Assembly: GCF_014635865.1 (NCBI RefSeq)
Contig: NZ_BMDQ01000001.1
Span: forward strand, 62,001 to 126,000
Direction: 5' to 3'
DNA: 64,000 nucleotides
Source of the DNA: Winogradskyella haliclonae
GTDB lineage: Bacteria > Bacteroidota > Bacteroidia > Flavobacteriales > Flavobacteriaceae
Shown here: positions 32,230 through 48,029 of the stretch, piece by piece
How positions within the stretch are numbered: position 1 is the first letter of the stretch
Layout of the letters: each line of letters begins with the position of its first letter
The notes under the pieces: model-generated
The model's input: the letters and a program-made list of their open reading frames with translations, nothing else
Databases searched by the model: none
Told to the model about the DNA's origin: nothing
Made by a program: the position numbers and the translations under genes

Positions 32230-32261
32230 AAAAAAGGCTCGCAAATTGCGAGCCTTTTTTT
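32230..32261. terminator. bidirectional intrinsic terminator
   Basis: GGCTCGCAA and TTGCGAGCC form a 9-bp GC-rich stem with a one-base loop, extended by A-T pairs, with A6 and T7 flanks. It sits between the convergent 31719 gene and the aromatic operon and ends both. Confidence 0.9.
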
Positions 32262-33342
32262 AATTATTAATAATCTTTTCTTGATGATTTATAGATTCTT
32301 GATGAATCGCTTTAAATACACGAAGTATAAACTCTTCACTTAGGTTCTTCTCTTCTCCTTGAAGAATCATTTTTCCTAAAATCTCGTTCCAACGTTTAGA
32401 CTGTAATACCGCTACGTTATGGTCTTTTTTAAGTTGACCAATAGCATCAGCAACATTCATACGTTTACCAAGCATTTCAATCAATTGATGATCTACTACA
32501 TCGATTTGTGTTCTTAAGGTATTAATATTATTTCTAAACTCAGCTGCTTCACCAACCTCTTTACGGATGCGTAAATCTTCAGTGTACTTTATTAACGTTT
32601 CTGGCGTAATCTGTTGAGCAGCATCACTCCATGCTCTATCCGGATTATGATGTGTTTCAATCATTAAACCATCATAATTTAAGTCTAATGCTGTCTGACT
32701 TAGTTCGAAAATAATATCACGTCGCCCAGCAATATGCGACGGGTCTAATATTAATGGTAAATCTGGAAAACGGTTCTGTAAATCTACAGCAATCTGCCAT
32801 TCTGGATTATTACGATATCTCGTTTTTTCGTACGTAGAAAATCCTCTATGGATTACACCTAAATTCTTTACATCAGCCGTATAAAAACGTTCTACTGCAC
32901 CTAACCACAACGCTAAATCTGGATTTACTGGATTTTTTATTAAAACTGTTTTATCTGTTCCTTTTAAGGCATCTGCAATATCTTGAACAATAAATGGACT
33001 TACAGTCGTACGGGCACCAATCCAAAGGATATCTATATCATGTTTTAGAGCTAAATCTACATGATTTGCGTTAGCAACTTCAGTTGTTGTTAATAAGCCT
33101 GTTTCTTCTTTTGCGCGTTGCATCCACTTGAGTCCTAACGCACCAACACCCTCAAAATTTCCTGGTCGTGTTCTAGGTTTCCAAATACCCGCCCTAAAAA
33201 CAGTCGCATCACTATCTTTTAATTGGTGTGCAATCTTTAACACTTGTTCTTCAGTCTCTGCGCTACATGGTCCAGCAATAACTAATGGATGTTCTAACCC
33301 AAAGGCATCCAACCAATTTCTTAGTTCTTTTTTATTTTCCAT
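32260..33342 (-). CDS. bifunctional DAHP synthase / chorismate mutase (AroQ type)
   Basis: 360 residues: DAHP synthase of the KdsA-like class (about 1-265: VIAGPCSAETEEQV, FRAGIWKPRTRPGNFEGVG, LIKNPVNPDLALW, and DPSHIAGRRD) joined to a chorismate mutase type II helical domain (about 270-360: LRTQIDVVDHQLIEMLGKRMNVADAIGQLKKDHNVAVLQ). It makes the first committed shikimate intermediate and converts chorismate to prephenate. The fusion is known in Bacteroidota. Last gene of the attenuator-controlled operon, so feedback acts on the entry step too. Confidence 0.93.
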   Translation of the reverse strand: MENKKELRNWLDAFGLEHPLVIAGPCSAETEEQVLKIAHQLKDSDATVFRAGIWKPRTRPGNFEGVGALGLKWMQRAKEETGLLTTTEVANANHVDLALKHDIDILWIGARTTVSPFIVQDIADALKGTDKTVLIKNPVNPDLALWLGAVERFYTADVKNLGVIHRGFSTYEKTRYRNNPEWQIAVDLQNRFPDLPLILDPSHIAGRRDIIFELSQTALDLNYDGLMIETHHNPDRAWSDAAQQITPETLIKYTEDLRIRKEVGEAAEFRNNINTLRTQIDVVDHQLIEMLGKRMNVADAIGQLKKDHNVAVLQSKRWNEILGKMILQGEEKNLSEEFILRVFKAIHQESINHQEKIINN

Positions 33343-33355
33343 ACTTTCTTATTCT

Positions 33356-34207
33356 CTATTTAATTCCGTTAAGAATTTGTTTTATATAATTTGTTGATTC
33401 CATTTCTTGATAGACTGATTGAAAGTCATCCTTCTCCATTAGCCTCTTAAAATGTTTTAAGTTATTTATGTATTTATCTAATGTTTCAATAACATTAGTT
33501 TTATTTTGTTTAAATATTGGTGTCCACATAGCTGGAGAACTTTTTGCCAAGCGTACTGTACTCTCAAAACCACTACCGGCCATATCAAAAATATCACGTT
33601 CATTTTTTTCTTTTTCAATCACAGTTTTGCCTAGCATGAATGAGCTAATATGTGATAAGTGCGACACATAAGCAATGTGCTTGTCATGTGCCTTGGGATT
33701 CATATATCGAATACGCATCCCTATATCTGAAAAAAGAGCCAAAGCTTTCTCTTGAAGTTTAAAAGCTGTTTCTTCAACCTCACAAATGATATTTGTCTTA
33801 TTTTGAAAGAGCCCTTTAATAGCCGCTCTTGGTCCTGAAAATTCTGTACCTGCAATAGGATGCGCTGCAAGATAATTTCGTCGATTAGGGTGATTTTTAA
33901 CCCTAAGACAAATATTTTCTTTTGTAGAACCCACATCAAAAACAATTGTGTTTTCTGAAATGTTATCTAAGATTTTTGGCAGAAGGTCTAAAGTTACATC
34001 AACAGGAATAGCCACAATAACCAAATCAGATTTAGACAACTCATTTAAAGACGTAGATTTATCAATCACTCCAAGAGCGATGGCTTCCTCTAGATGAGCT
34101 TCATTATTATCTATACCATAAATTGTGGTATTTGGGTATTTAGTCTTAATATCTAAAGCAAAACTCCCTCCAATTAATCCAACACCAATTATAGTAACAT
34201 TCTTCAT
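33356..34207 (-). CDS. tyrA: prephenate dehydrogenase TyrA
   Basis: 283 residues. Oxidatively decarboxylates prephenate to 4-hydroxyphenylpyruvate with NAD+. Seen: Rossmann GVGLIGGSFALD, VAIPVDVTLDLLP, DVGSTKENI, AAHPIAGTEFSGPRAA, and HIAYVSHLSHISSF with the catalytic histidine region. Starts 1 bp before the upstream aminotransferase stop region (gap of one base) and precedes aroF/CM by 13 bp: one operon. ATG start. Symbol given for the dehydrogenase alone, since no chorismate mutase is fused here. Confidence 0.94.
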   Translation of the reverse strand: MKNVTIIGVGLIGGSFALDIKTKYPNTTIYGIDNNEAHLEEAIALGVIDKSTSLNELSKSDLVIVAIPVDVTLDLLPKILDNISENTIVFDVGSTKENICLRVKNHPNRRNYLAAHPIAGTEFSGPRAAIKGLFQNKTNIICEVEETAFKLQEKALALFSDIGMRIRYMNPKAHDKHIAYVSHLSHISSFMLGKTVIEKEKNERDIFDMAGSGFESTVRLAKSSPAMWTPIFKQNKTNVIETLDKYINNLKHFKRLMEKDDFQSVYQEMESTNYIKQILNGIK

Positions 34208-34208
34208 C

Positions 34209-35354
34209 TTATTTTACTCTTGCTATAGCTTCTTTAATTACTCCTTCCTCTTCGCATATAGAGAATCGTACATAACCCTCACCTTTACTACCAAAAACAG
34301 TTCCCGGAGCAATGAAAATACTATGTTCTTTGAGTACTAAATCCGTAAACTCTTCACTCTTAAGATGTGGCGGTAGTTTTGCCCAAACAAATAACCCGGT
34401 TGCATCCTCATTATATGTGCAGTTTAGTGCCTCAGCTAATTCCCATACCAACTGACGACGCTTTCGGTATATACTATTTAAACTTTCGAACCACATCTTC
34501 GAGCTAGTCAATGCTTCTATAGCTCCTTTTTGGATGCCATAAAACATCCCAGAATCCATGTTGCTTTTTACTTTTAAAACCGCATTAACATAATCATAAT
34601 TACCAACAACCATTCCTGCACGCCAACCAGCCATATTAAAGGTTTTGCTAATAGAGTTAAGTTCTAAACAGACATCTTTAGCTTGCCTATATTGCAGTAT
34701 ACTTTTAGGCTTGTTATTGAGTATAAAACTATAAGGATTATCATTAACAATAAGAATATTATGGCGTTTACCAAAGGCTATTATATCGTCATAAAACTTA
34801 TGCGGTGCATTAGTTCCTGTTGGCATATTTGGATAGTTAATCCACATGATTTTTACTTTACTCAAATCCATGCGCTCAAGTGCTATAAAATCTGGCAGCC
34901 AATTATTATTCTCTTTTAAATCATAAAAAACAGGTTCTGCTTCTAATAATTTGGTAACACTAGTATAGGTTGGATAACCTGGATTTGGAATTAAAACCGC
35001 ATCACCTTTATTTAAAAATGCCATGGAAATGTGCATAACACCTTCTTTACTTCCCATTAACGGTAGTATTTCTGTCTTAGCACTTAAATGCACATTATAA
35101 TGTGCTTTATAGAAATCTGCAACTGCATCTCTAAACTCTGGAATACCCTGATAACTCTGATATTTATGAGCACCGGCATGATTTAGACTCTCTTCTAAAG
35201 CCATAACAGCTTTTAAAGGCGGGTCTAAATCTGGACTACCAATTCCTAAATTAATTATTGGCTTGCCTTGTGACTTTAAAAAAGCTACTTCTTTAAGTTT
35301 TATTGAGAAGTAGTACTCTTTTACCTGTTTAAGTCGGTCTGCTACTTCTATCAT
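34209..35354 (-). CDS. class I/II aminotransferase of the aromatic operon
   Basis: 381 residues, fold-type I PLP enzyme. Seen: INLGIGSPDLDPP, the PLP-binding NPGYPTYTS region, WINYPNMPTGTNAP, VNDNPYSFIL, and the Schiff-base lysine in NSISKTFNMAGWRAG. Position between pheA and tyrA points to transamination of phenylpyruvate/4-hydroxyphenylpyruvate (or prephenate). The fold is also that of LL-diaminopimelate/aspartate aminotransferases, so substrate range needs assay. Overlaps pheA by 4 bp (ATGA). Confidence 0.88.
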   Translation of the reverse strand: MIEVADRLKQVKEYYFSIKLKEVAFLKSQGKPIINLGIGSPDLDPPLKAVMALEESLNHAGAHKYQSYQGIPEFRDAVADFYKAHYNVHLSAKTEILPLMGSKEGVMHISMAFLNKGDAVLIPNPGYPTYTSVTKLLEAEPVFYDLKENNNWLPDFIALERMDLSKVKIMWINYPNMPTGTNAPHKFYDDIIAFGKRHNILIVNDNPYSFILNNKPKSILQYRQAKDVCLELNSISKTFNMAGWRAGMVVGNYDYVNAVLKVKSNMDSGMFYGIQKGAIEALTSSKMWFESLNSIYRKRRQLVWELAEALNCTYNEDATGLFVWAKLPPHLKSEEFTDLVLKEHSIFIAPGTVFGSKGEGYVRFSICEEEGVIKEAIARVK

Positions 35355-36184
35355 GATTTTCCGTTTTTATATTCGCCTAAAATCTTGAAATTTTCTGCCA
35401 TAATACTTACTATAGATTTTGCTTTATTATAATCTGAATATACATCAAAAGTAACATCTATAAAAAAAGCATATTTCCATGGGGTATTAATTTTTGGTAA
35501 AGATTGAATTTTAGTAAGATTGAGTTTACAATCGCTCAGCACATTAAGTATTGCGGCTAGGCTTCCACGCTTGTGGTCTAACTCAAACTTTAAAGATGCC
35601 TTATTGATTTCTGTATTAACTATTTCGTTTTTATTTTTTTTGACAATCACAAAACGAGTTTCGTTATGCTTTATGGTCTGAATACTTCTTTCTAAAATTT
35701 CTAAATTATATAATCTAGAAGCCCTTTCACTAGCAATTGCAGCAATTCTCGATACTTTATCTTCTGAAATCATTTTGGCAACATCTGCAGTATCTCTTGT
35801 TTCTATTAACTTGATATTAGGGTATGATTTAAAAAACTCCTTACATTGTAATAACGCCATAGGATGCGAATGCACCTCTGTAATTTCTTCAATGCTTTGC
35901 CCTGGGAACACCATTAAGTTATGCTGAATATCTAAATAATACTCTCCTATAATTTGTAAATCGTTTGTATCAATTAAGGCATAATTTGGAATAATTGAGC
36001 CCGCTATAGAATTTTCAATCGCCATGACGGCAACATCGGTTTTGCCTTCTAATAAACTATTTACAAGTTCATCAAAAGTCATGCACTCTTTAAAAGAATC
36101 CACATCCTCAAAATATTGCTCTGCAACACTGTGATGAAAAGATCCTTTTATGCCTTGAATAGCTATGTTGTTTATTTTATTCAT
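35351..36184 (-). CDS. pheA: prephenate dehydratase PheA with C-terminal ACT domain
   Basis: 277 residues. Converts prephenate to phenylpyruvate. Seen: the dehydratase domain (IAIQGIKGSFHHSVAEQYF, VMAIENSIAGSIIPNY, KHNETRFVIV with the TRF motif) and an ACT domain (about 195-275, SLKFELDHKRGSLAAILNVL) for allosteric phenylalanine control. First structural gene of the aromatic operon, 26 nt after the attenuator terminator. Thus it is regulated by both attenuation and feedback. ATG 36184. Confidence 0.94.
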   Translation of the reverse strand: MNKINNIAIQGIKGSFHHSVAEQYFEDVDSFKECMTFDELVNSLLEGKTDVAVMAIENSIAGSIIPNYALIDTNDLQIIGEYYLDIQHNLMVFPGQSIEEITEVHSHPMALLQCKEFFKSYPNIKLIETRDTADVAKMISEDKVSRIAAIASERASRLYNLEILERSIQTIKHNETRFVIVKKNKNEIVNTEINKASLKFELDHKRGSLAAILNVLSDCKLNLTKIQSLPKINTPWKYAFFIDVTFDVYSDYNKAKSIVSIMAENFKILGEYKNGKS

Positions 36185-36209: not shown

Positions 36210-36242
36210 AAAAAAAAAGTCTCGATTTTCATCGAGACTTTT
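36210..36242 (-). terminator. attenuator terminator of the pheA operon
   Basis: On the minus strand AAAAGTCTCGAT (36242-36231), GNRA loop GAAA, ATCGAGACTTTT (36226-36215), then an uninterrupted T9 tract overall. It is a strong intrinsic terminator in the 5' leader, 26 nt before the pheA ATG. Its 5' arm can instead pair with CGAGGCTT at 36278-36271. Confidence 0.9.
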
Positions 36243-36268
36243 AATTTATATGTTTTAAATACTATATA

Positions 36269-36334
36269 CTAAGCCTCGCATCTTTTACTAAAAAAGAAGT
36301 AGAACCAGTTATAATATGTTGTATTTATTTGCAT
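36269..36334 (-). CDS. aromatic-rich leader peptide of the pheA operon (attenuator)
   Basis: A 21-codon ORF, ATG 36334 to TAG 36269. Residues 7-15 read YYNWFYFFF: eight aromatic codons (Phe, Tyr, Trp) in nine. Its last codons plus stop (GAG GCT TAG) contain CGAGGCTT, complementary over 8 bp (one G-U) to the 5' arm of the downstream terminator. The expected behaviour: stalling on scarce charged tRNA leaves this arm free to form the antiterminator. Completion of the peptide covers it and lets the terminator fold. The genes downstream make Phe and Tyr, so substrate and control match. No such leader is in the usual annotation sets because of its size. Confidence 0.85.
   Translation of the reverse strand: MQINTTYYNWFYFFFSKRCEA
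36271..36278 (-). promoter_or_regulatory. antiterminator arm of the pheA attenuator
   Basis: CGAGGCTT on the minus strand can pair with AAGTCTCG of the terminator 5' arm (36240-36233). That arm is then unavailable for the terminator. The site overlaps the leader-peptide stop codon, exactly where a terminating ribosome would hide it. Confidence 0.8.
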
Positions 36335-36428
36335 TGTTAATTATATCGTTCGCTAATGTAACCAATAAATTGAAAAATAAAAATTGTTGAAATACTTTTT
36401 TACAACTTACGTTTTCTGTTTTAATACT

Positions 36429-36452: not shown

Positions 36453-37346
36453 ATGTCAATAGAAGTAAACGCTATTACTAAAACTTACGGAACACAAAAA
36501 GCACTTAATAACATTTCTTTTTCTGTTAAACCAGCTGAAATTGTAGGCTTCTTAGGCCCTAATGGTGCAGGGAAGTCTACCATGATGAAAATATTGACGA
36601 CTTATATCAACCCTACTGAAGGCGAGGCAAAAGTCAACGGGCATAAAATTGATACTAATAAAAAAGAGGTGCAAAGCTCTGTAGGTTATTTGCCTGAGCA
36701 TAACCCACTCTACTCAGAACTTTATGTTCGAGAATATTTAAAATTTAATGCAGATGTCTATAACGTAAGTAAACAGCGCATTGAAGAGGTTATAGAACTT
36801 ACTGGATTAACGCCCGAAGCTCATAAAAAAATAGGACAACTCTCAAAAGGATATCGTCAGCGTGTAGGTTTGGCTAATGCATTATTGCACAATCCTGATG
36901 TCTTAATTTTAGACGAACCAACAACTGGCTTGGACCCTAACCAATTGGTAGATGTCAGAAATCTAATTACTACTATTGGCCAAGAAAAGACTGTTTTTTT
37001 ATCTACACATATTATGCAAGAAGTTGAAGCTATGTGTGATCGAGTTATCATTATTAATAAGGGTGAGATTGTCGCAGACAAATACCTAAATGAATTAAGA
37101 AAAGGACAAGAACAAACTGTTATCGTAGAGTTTGATTATAGGGTTGAAGAAGCTTTTTTATTAAAATTACCTAAAGTAAAGTTGGTAAAAAACACACATG
37201 GATTTATTTATGAAATAACGTTTTCTTCAACTGATGATATGCGTTCTTATGTTTTTGATTTTGCTCATGACAATGAACTAAAAATACTCCAGCTTAATCA
37301 AAAAAATACAAGTTTAGAAAGTCTGTTTAGAGAATTGACTAATTAA
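36453..37346 (+). CDS. gldA: gliding motility ABC transporter ATP-binding subunit GldA
   Basis: 297 residues, ABC ATPase. Seen: Walker A GPNGAGKST, Q-loop area VGYLPEHNPLY, signature LSKGYRQRVG, Walker B VLILDEPTTGLDP, H-loop FLSTHI, followed by a C-terminal domain of about 75 residues. The YLPEHNPLY variant and C-terminus identify GldA, which pairs with GldF/GldG membrane subunits in gliding flavobacteria. Those partners are not adjacent here, as is normal in the group. Convergent with the DUF2807 gene with an 8-bp overlap. Confidence 0.92.
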   Translation: MSIEVNAITKTYGTQKALNNISFSVKPAEIVGFLGPNGAGKSTMMKILTTYINPTEGEAKVNGHKIDTNKKEVQSSVGYLPEHNPLYSELYVREYLKFNADVYNVSKQRIEEVIELTGLTPEAHKKIGQLSKGYRQRVGLANALLHNPDVLILDEPTTGLDPNQLVDVRNLITTIGQEKTVFLSTHIMQEVEAMCDRVIIINKGEIVADKYLNELRKGQEQTVIVEFDYRVEEAFLLKLPKVKLVKNTHGFIYEITFSSTDDMRSYVFDFAHDNELKILQLNQKNTSLESLFRELTN

Positions 37347-47476: not shown

Positions 47477-47616
47477 TTTTCTAATTTTTTTGAGTTTAAA
47501 CAATACTTAAAATCATCTCGAAAACAAACGAGATATATAGCTTCTTTCGAGGCTAGCAAATAGAAAAATGTTATAAAGAAATTATACGCAATTGCTAATG
47601 AGCAATTGATTTTTTG

Positions 47617-47735
47617 GTTATCTATCTCGAAAACGAGAAATGATTCGTCTTCAAAGTAGAATTTAGCACCTTCTTAGTAAGTCTAAGGGTTGCTAAGGCT
47701 TCAACGGGTCTATTCCCTTCACCTTTCTTGATAAC
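47617..47735 (-). promoter_or_regulatory. SAM-I (S-box) riboswitch of the metY operon
   Basis: The minus strand shows the S-box core: P1 GTTATC (47735-47730) with GATAAC (47622-47617), AAGAAAGGTGAAGGGA, ACCCGTTGAAGCCTTAGCAACC, and AAGGTGCTAAATTC. A P4-like hairpin TCTCG-TTTT-CGAGA closes the core. This is a near-textbook consensus. Downstream hairpins (CAATTGCTCATTAGCAATTG; ATCTCG/CGAGAT) lie before metY and could form the switch. High SAM should lower metY-metF expression. No long T tract is visible, so translation control is as likely as termination. Confidence 0.93.
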
Positions 47736-47764
47736 ATTTCAAAAAGTTGATTGAACTTTCTGTA

Positions 47765-47891: not shown

Positions 47892-47904
47892 CACCGAAAT
47901 AATT

Positions 47905-47955
47905 AAGAGGAATGATTTGACTGATTGCAACCTCTGGAAAAAATTGCTAAAGACA
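47905..47955 (+). promoter_or_regulatory. SAM-II riboswitch of metK
   Basis: The order AGAGG, AATGATTTGACTGATTGCAA, CCTCT, GGAAAAAATTGCTAAAG fits the SAM-II pseudoknot: P1 AGAGG/CCTCT, ligand loop TGATTT...ATTGCAA, and the 3' strand TTGCTAAAGACAGT. ACTG (47920-47923) can pair with CAGT (47954-47957). It is 75 bp before metK. GTCAAATC at 47980-47987 is complementary to the loop segment GATTTGAC (47914-47921), a possible competing structure. SAM should lower metK expression. Confidence 0.85.
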
Positions 47956-48029
47956 GTGTTATGCTTTCCATACTATTGCGTCAAATCTTCATAAAATAGA
48001 ATCTCGATAATCGAGCAAAATTAAAATAT

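Follow-up and report, generated by a model that had tools for sequence, protein, structure and literature searches.

The window, i.e., the whole 64,000-nt stretch of Winogradskyella haliclonae DNA analyzed here, carries on its minus strand the operon pheA-aminotransferase-tyrA-DAHP synthase/chorismate mutase, preceded by a short open reading frame (ORF) and an intrinsic terminator and flanked upstream by the divergent gldA (Table 1). Profile matches agree with the genes that the initial annotation had placed in this operon. Re-reading of the letters likewise bears out the 21-codon leader (ATG...GCT, then TAG) with its aromatic codons 7 to 15, and the 8-bp pairing proposed to compete with the terminator lies as described, between CGAGGCTT and AAGTCTCG of the terminator 5' arm, including one G-U. 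The terminator itself has the announced 12-bp stem, GAAA loop, and T9 tract, except that the tract does not lie wholly outside the stem: four of its nine T's are paired inside it, which leaves five unpaired U's after the stem. The gap between terminator and pheA ATG (36184), given earlier as 26 nt, measures 25 nt.

Table 1. Features of the pheA leader region and operon in the window.
Feature	Position	Strand	Description and basis
-33-like element	36379..36383	-	TTTTT in the window (ends in TTG in most relatives); relatives' position
-7 box	36353..36360	-	TACATTAG, resembles the flavobacterial sigma-A consensus TAnnTTTG; relatives and PMC9723704
Leader peptide ORF	36269..36334	-	MQINTTYYNWFYFFFSKRCEA, stop TAG; kept in 105/107 distinct upstream regions
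Control codons 7-15	36290..36316	-	Tyr Tyr Asn Trp Phe Tyr Phe Phe Phe; column counts in relatives
Putative 1:2 (protector/pause) hairpin	36272..36306	-	Trp-to-Phe codons with SKRCE codons including arm 2; ~-5.2 kcal/mol
Arm 2 of antiterminator	36271..36278	-	CGAGGCTT; pairs with arm 3 in relatives' folds
Arm 3, antiterminator partner of arm 2	36231..36242	-	AAAAGTCTCGAT, terminator 5' arm; folds and alignment
Intrinsic terminator (3:4)	36210..36242	-	12-bp stem, GAAA loop, T tract; folding energy
Terminator loop	36227..36230	-	GAAA
Terminator 3' arm	36215..36226	-	
T9 tract	36210..36218	-	
pheA, prephenate dehydratase	35351..36184	-	first structural gene; NF008865, E 1.2e-60, 205 bits (cut-off 219, just missed)
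Class I aminotransferase	34209..35354	-	below every cut-off shown
tyrA, prephenate dehydrogenase	33356..34207	-	NF006307, above cut-off
DAHP synthase fused to chorismate mutase	32260..33342	-	best match NF009239, below its cut-off
gldA	36453..37346	+	divergent upstream neighbor of leader and pheA

Among the 50 ATG-started ORFs of at least 150 codons in the window, pheA alone has within 300 nt upstream a short ORF with more than 6 aromatic residues per 9 codons (8; next best, 6), and 9-codon stretches with at least 8 aromatic residues occur just twice in the whole window, in any frame on both strands. The fold of the 236-nt leader beats all 200 of its dinucleotide shuffles (z = -3.18).

A -33 element is a part of flavobacterial promoters. 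In the relatives of the window's leader, TTG stands exactly 18 nt before the -7 box in 87 of the 101 leaders examined, the window being an exception with TTTTT instead of TTTTG. The box, present as TACATTAG, TACTTTAG, or TAATTTAG upstream of the leader in 102 of 105 regions, resembles TAnnTTTG, the -7 consensus reported for flavobacteria (PMC9723704). Since the distance from box to ATG is 10 to 19 nt in 80 of 101 leaders, the 5' untranslated region of the relatives' leaders is probably ~6 to 15 nt long. For the window, transcription is predicted to start near position 36348, with an untranslated region of ~14 nt. Flavobacteria are described as having no Shine-Dalgarno sequences (PMC9723704).

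Protein searches with pheA matched 66 of 68 genomes of the genus and 178 of 199 genomes of a family sample, and 80 loci of 517 were kept from named genomes. The resulting 139 loci gave 107 distinct upstream regions which, being the best matches, over-represent Winogradskyella and genera close to it; among the named hosts are Winogradskyella, Gelidibacter, Psychroserpens, Lacinutrix, Mangrovimonas, and Hanstruepera. Gene order is pheA-aminotransferase-tyrA-DAHP synthase in all 77 named loci with enough sequence (three more are too short). Alignment A1 of 57 nonredundant leaders served to build the covariance model R1. A leader is present in 105 of the 107 regions; the two counted as misses, L035 and L112, come from contigs with 131 and 153 nt of sequence ahead of the pheA match; in the L035 genome, R1 matches directly before pheA. 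The peptide YYNWFYFFF is highly conserved among close relatives, with the Asn column kept in 78 and the Trp column in 95 of 105 near leaders. Judged from this comparison, the leader is not a product of chance. The look upstream of pheA in relatives that the initial annotation had proposed thus came out in its favor, with aromatic codons, terminator, and 2:3 pairing all conserved. Within the peptide, the Phe codon after the conserved Tyr (A1 columns 34 to 36; window 36298-36296) is TTC in 99 of 105 leaders and the next two are nearly always TTT; this TTC could interrupt an otherwise long series of T's or take part in the 1:2 hairpin.

R1 matches 156 of the 199 family-sample genomes at an E value of ≤0.01 and about 108 (hand count) at ≤1e-4, the position relative to pheA being tallied for part of the 156. 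All 16 weaker or displaced family matches fetched (L177 to L192) lie before pheA with an aromatic ORF. Among the 29 class-sample R1 loci fetched (L197 to L225), 10 (8 from families other than the window's) show an aromatic ORF ahead of pheA; the others of these 29, mostly with E values of ~0.003, look like chance, hence family matches near 0.01 may also be chance. Second R1 matches in four family genomes (L193 to L196) were set aside as terminators after other genes, without an aromatic leader. In the window's own genome, R1 scores the pheA leader at 3.5e-15 and its next match at 0.09, so that we see no second copy there.

The position of the control codons relative to arm 2 is nearly invariant. 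Counted from the first nucleotide of the last aromatic codon to that of the arm 2 motif GAG(A/G)C, the spacing is 15 nt in 95 of 100 leaders, 12 nt in three, 18 nt in one, and 27 nt in one, the other five of the 105 having an arm 2 off this pattern (GAGAT, GGGAC, GGGGC). The stop codon wanders in the same 100 leaders: relative to the start of arm 2 it lies at -9 nt in 28, -3 in 1, +6 in 20, +9 in 3, +15 in 47, and +21 in 1. On a quick pheA tree of these leaders the stop class changed at least 16 times, with 38 of 97 inner branches weakly supported; the well-supported branches force at least 4 or 5 stop changes per class. Because the spacing is fixed while the stop shifts, the conserved quantity is the distance from control codon to arm 2 and not the length of the peptide. 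On geometry, with the standard footprint of a ribosome, every stop position except perhaps the single one at +21 would place the terminating ribosome over arm 2; the +21 stop may leave arm 2 partly bare. Several Winogradskyella leaders (e.g., L008, L009, L017, and L106) stop right after FFFS, yet retain AAAGGAAC/AAAAGAAC untranslated, pointing to a role of this segment at the RNA level.

In the 57 aligned leaders, the terminator has nine consensus pairs, one with changes on both sides. When arm 4 is removed, the minimum-energy fold puts arm 2 on arm 3 in 54 of 57 leaders by script and likewise in the printed folds of the other three. The six 2:3 pairs are formed in 98.8% of alignment cells, and 2:3 together with the inner 1:2 helix in 95.0%, against 48 to 61% for versions slid along the alignment. 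The segment separating the arms is more stably folded than its own shuffles in 88% of rows (mean z, -0.98). In L134, arms 2, 3, and 4 all depart from the consensus together. Mean energies are -12.0 kcal/mol for the antiterminator and -13.2 for the terminator (-9.5 versus -15.3 in the window), and in 41 of 57 leaders, window included, the terminator is the more stable of the two, so that the antiterminator has to prevail through the order in which the arms are made.

An initial reading of ours without any 1:2 hairpin was dropped after the results on covariation and synonymous shuffles of this hairpin. The eight pairs of its inner helix, joining the Tyr-Phe-Phe-Phe codons to the Ser-Lys-Arg-Asn codons, are formed in 92.1% of cells with two-sided changes at four pairs, and the helix reaches -3.5 kcal/mol versus -1.8 for synonymous shuffles (median fraction, 0.09; 11 of 55 at ≤0.05). 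Extension into arm 2 lowers pairing to 89.0%, with a version slid by two columns scoring higher on covariation (0.184 versus 0.177), and the whole 1:2 hairpin gives -7.1 versus -6.0 kcal/mol for synonymous shuffles (median fraction, 0.34; 4 of 55 at 0.05). In 48 of 55 folds, arm 2 is engaged with upstream sequence. The 1:2 hairpin as a whole is thus putative, slightly ahead of its synonymous shuffles, and its outer pairs are weakly supported. RNAalifold on the 57-row alignment found no conserved fold besides the terminator and, without arm 4, gave four consensus pairs only, the inner loops being clade-specific; leaders were folded one by one instead. Near loci are related and their 2:3 arms hardly vary, so that covariation close to the window is thin and the argument rests mostly on distant families.

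In the class-wide sample of Bacteroidia, 78 of 295 genomes gave a match to prephenate dehydratase (PF00800), a lower bound in a search that recovered all 14 controls; auxotrophy or a limit of the search are possible causes of so low a count. An ORF with at least 6 aromatic residues per 9 codons lies upstream of pheA in 48 of the 78 regions (at least 7 in 38), and among 1,560 Markov shuffles 2.2% reach at least 6 and 0.06% at least 7. Nine regions belong to the window's own family, window included, and all nine pass; outside it the count is 39 of 69. Thirty of the 78 regions have no such ORF at the tested level, including all eight of f13 and both of f2 and of f68, with four f17 regions that score 5 counted as misses. 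Leaders with a terminator number 49, from 46 loci in 16 families (f1 included), three ORFs without a terminator by script (two in L265, one in L271) and one TTG-started ORF (L262) having been dropped. In this set, the spacing from last aromatic codon to arm 2 is 9 to 18 nt in 45 of 49 leaders; both ends were picked by script, arm 2 by best pairing, and these spacings are less exact than those of the family set.

Arm 3 varies by family (GTCTCG, GTCCCGGC, TCCTGAT, TCCCGCTT, and others) and arm 2 changes to match. The summed arm 2-arm 3 pairing of the 49 leaders is 591, versus a mean of 437 (standard deviation, 15.6; maximum, 492) in 2,000 permutations that re-paired them. The mean score is 12.1 with a leader's own arm 3, 8.7 with a foreign arm 3, 7.1 with the zone shuffled, and 5.9 with the zone before the aromatic codons; 45 of 49 leaders beat their own cross-family mean. 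GTCCCG-like arms recur in different families, and for that reason no more than 22 of 49 arm 2 zones outscore 95% of foreign arm 3s. This covariation across families is the best evidence for a selected 2:3 pairing. The earlier claim that terminator and antiterminator exclude each other is supported: the 2:3 pairing is kept within the family, and its two arms change in concert across the class.

Altogether, the locus presents the features that mark attenuators of the trp/his/phe type, namely, a leader ORF with clustered codons, a terminator before the first gene, and exclusive 2:3 and 3:4 pairings that are conserved and covary. We therefore hold it very likely that the element is a ribosome-mediated transcription attenuator sensing the charging of tRNA-Phe and tRNA-Tyr, and perhaps also of tRNA-Trp. 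From the leader, terminator, 2:3 pairing, and spacing, all supported by the comparison, we infer how stalling, masking, and termination would proceed, with what kinetics, and in response to which amino acids. RNA polymerase would start ~14 nt before the leader ATG and a ribosome would begin the 21-codon leader, to stall within codons 7 to 15 under shortage of Phe or Tyr. Once the last Phe codon occupies the A site, arm 2 would start ~14 to 15 nt downstream, just beyond the standard ribosome footprint; free arm 2 would pair with arm 3 once the latter is made, thus blocking the terminator and letting the operon be transcribed. If neither amino acid is scarce, the ribosome would reach the stop codon and cover arm 2, arm 3 would pair with arm 4, and transcription would end before pheA. 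The putative 1:2 hairpin would probably hold or pace the polymerase until the ribosome arrives.

Other accounts of the same features can be weighed against this attenuator. The leader peptide could, with a bound aromatic amino acid, arrest its own ribosome in the manner of TnaC, and the terminator would respond to that arrest. The close conservation of YYNWFYFFF near the window, Asn and Trp columns included, speaks for such an arrest. Arrest peptides, however, conserve sequence rather than composition, and the aromatic order is free across families (YFYGFYFYFTSKSRD, FYFSFYFYPSHRG, YFWFYYYFFKALPG, FYYYFFFSTSSGC) while Phe/Tyr content, the rough spacing, and the terminator persist; we consider nascent-peptide arrest very improbable.

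We give even less credit to an ordinary terminator or insulator beside a fortuitous short ORF. Similar GCCTCG/GTCTCG hairpin terminators do stand after other genes in these genomes (L193 to L195), but gldA is divergent, so that no gldA transcript needs ending at this place, and the near-universal presence of the leader among the distinct upstream regions, the excess of aromatic ORFs over shuffles across the class, and the covariation of arm 2 all argue against it. The element could also be a metabolite- or tRNA-binding RNA, either a T-box or a new riboswitch, without a translated leader. A new riboswitch would be expected to lack an Rfam match, and indeed, between 36150 and 36500, no T-box or other Rfam cis-regulatory family scores above its gathering threshold; the 18 subthreshold matches hold no T-box either. 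Against such an RNA stand the RNAalifold result, with the terminator as the only conserved fold, and the nature of the conserved part, an ORF enriched in the amino acids that the pathway makes, and we likewise find it scarcely credible. Near-matches such as MicC and BSnc120 were discarded, being far under cutoff and seemingly driven by the terminator hairpin.

Within the attenuator model, the amino acids sensed deserve separate treatment. The initial annotation had Phe, Tyr, and Trp charging act together; Phe and Tyr are well supported, both occurring in 49 of 49 class-level leaders, and Trp is possible. It could be that Trp is not sensed at all, the signal being Phe and Tyr alone, and that UGG is kept near the window for pairing of its GG with arm 2 in the 1:2 hairpin. 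Trp occurs in 16 of 49 class-level leaders and is absent from 33, versus 95 of 105 at the Trp column of the near leaders; the second G of UGG forms a standard pair with the last C of arm 2 in 53 of 56 leaders; and the best trpE match of the genome has a WWW leader of its own. Conversely, a single UGG can stall a ribosome, the DAHP synthase of the operon also feeds Trp, so that sensing it would make sense, and the first G of UGG is paired in just 34 of 57 leaders. We regard a leader blind to Trp as a serious possibility, at somewhat below even chances; pairing of its GG with arm 2 may in part account for the persistence of the Trp codon near the window. The WWW leader, MQTNKTWWWSFTNETFVK, lies with a terminator before the best trpE match (430 of 518 bits, below its model's cutoff) at about 1385130-1385245 of contig C1, on the minus strand (L296). 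A His leader, MNITQLHHHFHLIAQAR, lies with a terminator at about 257420-257540 of contig C2, on the minus strand (L302), before the gene preceding hisD, which we take to be hisG. With these leaders at hand, leader-peptide attenuation seems a habit of the organism, in which Trp has its own sensor.

In two other families the arrangement is doubled. Two complete leader-plus-terminator modules stand in series before pheA in 6 of 28 loci of f50 (L314, L315, L317, L318, L320, and L321; L276 is the genome of L318) and in 10 of 27 loci of f63 (L336, L338, L343, L346, L348, L349, L350, L353, L356, and L357); other script thresholds gave 3 and 11, respectively, and the partial matches L331, L332, and L360 were left out of the counts. 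The module starts are 125 to 179 nt apart, and both modules are Phe/Tyr-rich, each with its own intrinsic terminator, as in L348, where MAIQLDNRSFYFFSFYFYGKP and a terminator are followed by MNIPNQATGKNYFFFFYFFYGSP and a terminator of its own. Our guess is that f50 comprises relatives of Hymenobacter. We lean toward a model of an old class-wide pheA attenuator in Bacteroidia, whose arms and peptide order drifted while the logic was kept, and which in f50 and f63 would act as two gates in series for the same signal. If this model is true, such a series would reveal how one attenuator multiplies the effect of another. To our knowledge, serial leader attenuators for the same amino acid have not been described. 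The two ORFs of Salmonella mgtCBR reportedly sense different signals. These mgtCBR "tandem attenuators," the relevant match in our literature search on serial attenuators, have two short ORFs in one leader that control transcription, comparable to the modules of f50 and f63 (PMC3641672). Both modules of f50 and f63, for their part, are built on Phe/Tyr codons, each with an intrinsic terminator of its own.

In its logic, the proposed switch follows the trp, his, and phe leaders and is not wholly new. The pheL leader of the Escherichia coli and Salmonella pheA genes is Phe-specific. With it (RF01859, Phe_leader) and with the trp, his, leu, thr, and ilv attenuators, the window element shares a product-codon-rich ORF, exclusive 2:3 and 3:4 pairings, a terminator just before the first gene, and, putatively, a 1:2 hairpin, a general scheme set out for the ribosome-mediated attenuators of trp, his, leu, thr, and ilv (PMC1183508). 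It differs from pheL in combining Phe with Tyr, in an arm 2 inside or just after the ORF, in a variable stop, and in a four-gene Phe/Tyr/DAHP synthase operon, and the window leader scores 21.9 bits with RF01859 against a gathering cutoff of 55. Bacteroid-trp (RF01692) is also a cis-regulatory RNA of Bacteroidetes, its name pointing to trp genes (Weinberg 2010, PMC2864571); it belongs by name to another pathway and has no match in the window.

Predicted attenuators are said to have been placed in Bacteroidetes as well by Vitreschak et al. in 2004. Leader peptide systems were stated in 2010 to have been known from Proteobacteria and Actinobacteria only, until the Firmicutes case of that same study (PMC2965389), and leader-like short ORFs have been noted in Bacteroides (PMC7366714). 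The transcriptome of Flavobacterium psychrophilum published in 2021 reported conserved structured 5' elements upstream of pheA and hisG in Flavobacteriaceae, without an Rfam match, and clues for leader-peptide attenuation upstream of amino acid operons (PMC9723704). The remark that such attenuation is little described in flavobacteria was therefore only partly right. The F. psychrophilum pheA element very likely belongs to the same family as the window's and is described, in the portion of that report available, without leader sequence, spacing, pairing, or spread beyond the family (PMC9723704).

Three things seem to be new: the spread through the class, the constancy of the spacing, and the tandem double attenuators in two other families. 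Our searches of an open-license library brought up no earlier account of them, which is no proof of absence. The spread extends trp-type attenuation, as defined in Enterobacteria, to what is apparently a main control of aromatic amino acid synthesis in Bacteroidia. The fixed 15-nt spacing with its wandering stop amounts to a natural mutational series on how ribosome position hides or frees an RNA arm, and makes ribosome-polymerase coupling in this phylum directly testable.

Some minor observations concern the neighborhood of the leader and the rest of the window. In four Gelidibacter loci (L039, L070, L098, and L109), repeats lie between attenuator and pheA, several ending in hairpins like AATCCCGCCGAAAGGCGGGAT, and displace the leader farther upstream; Winogradskyella L009 has a different insert at the same place. 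The Rfam scan of the whole window gave two matches only, SAM and SAM-II, both away from the leader: a SAM-I riboswitch at 47615-47737 on the minus strand and a SAM-II riboswitch at 47901-47960 on the plus strand stand back to back, 163 nt apart. These are two unrelated SAM sensors, presumably driving divergent units.
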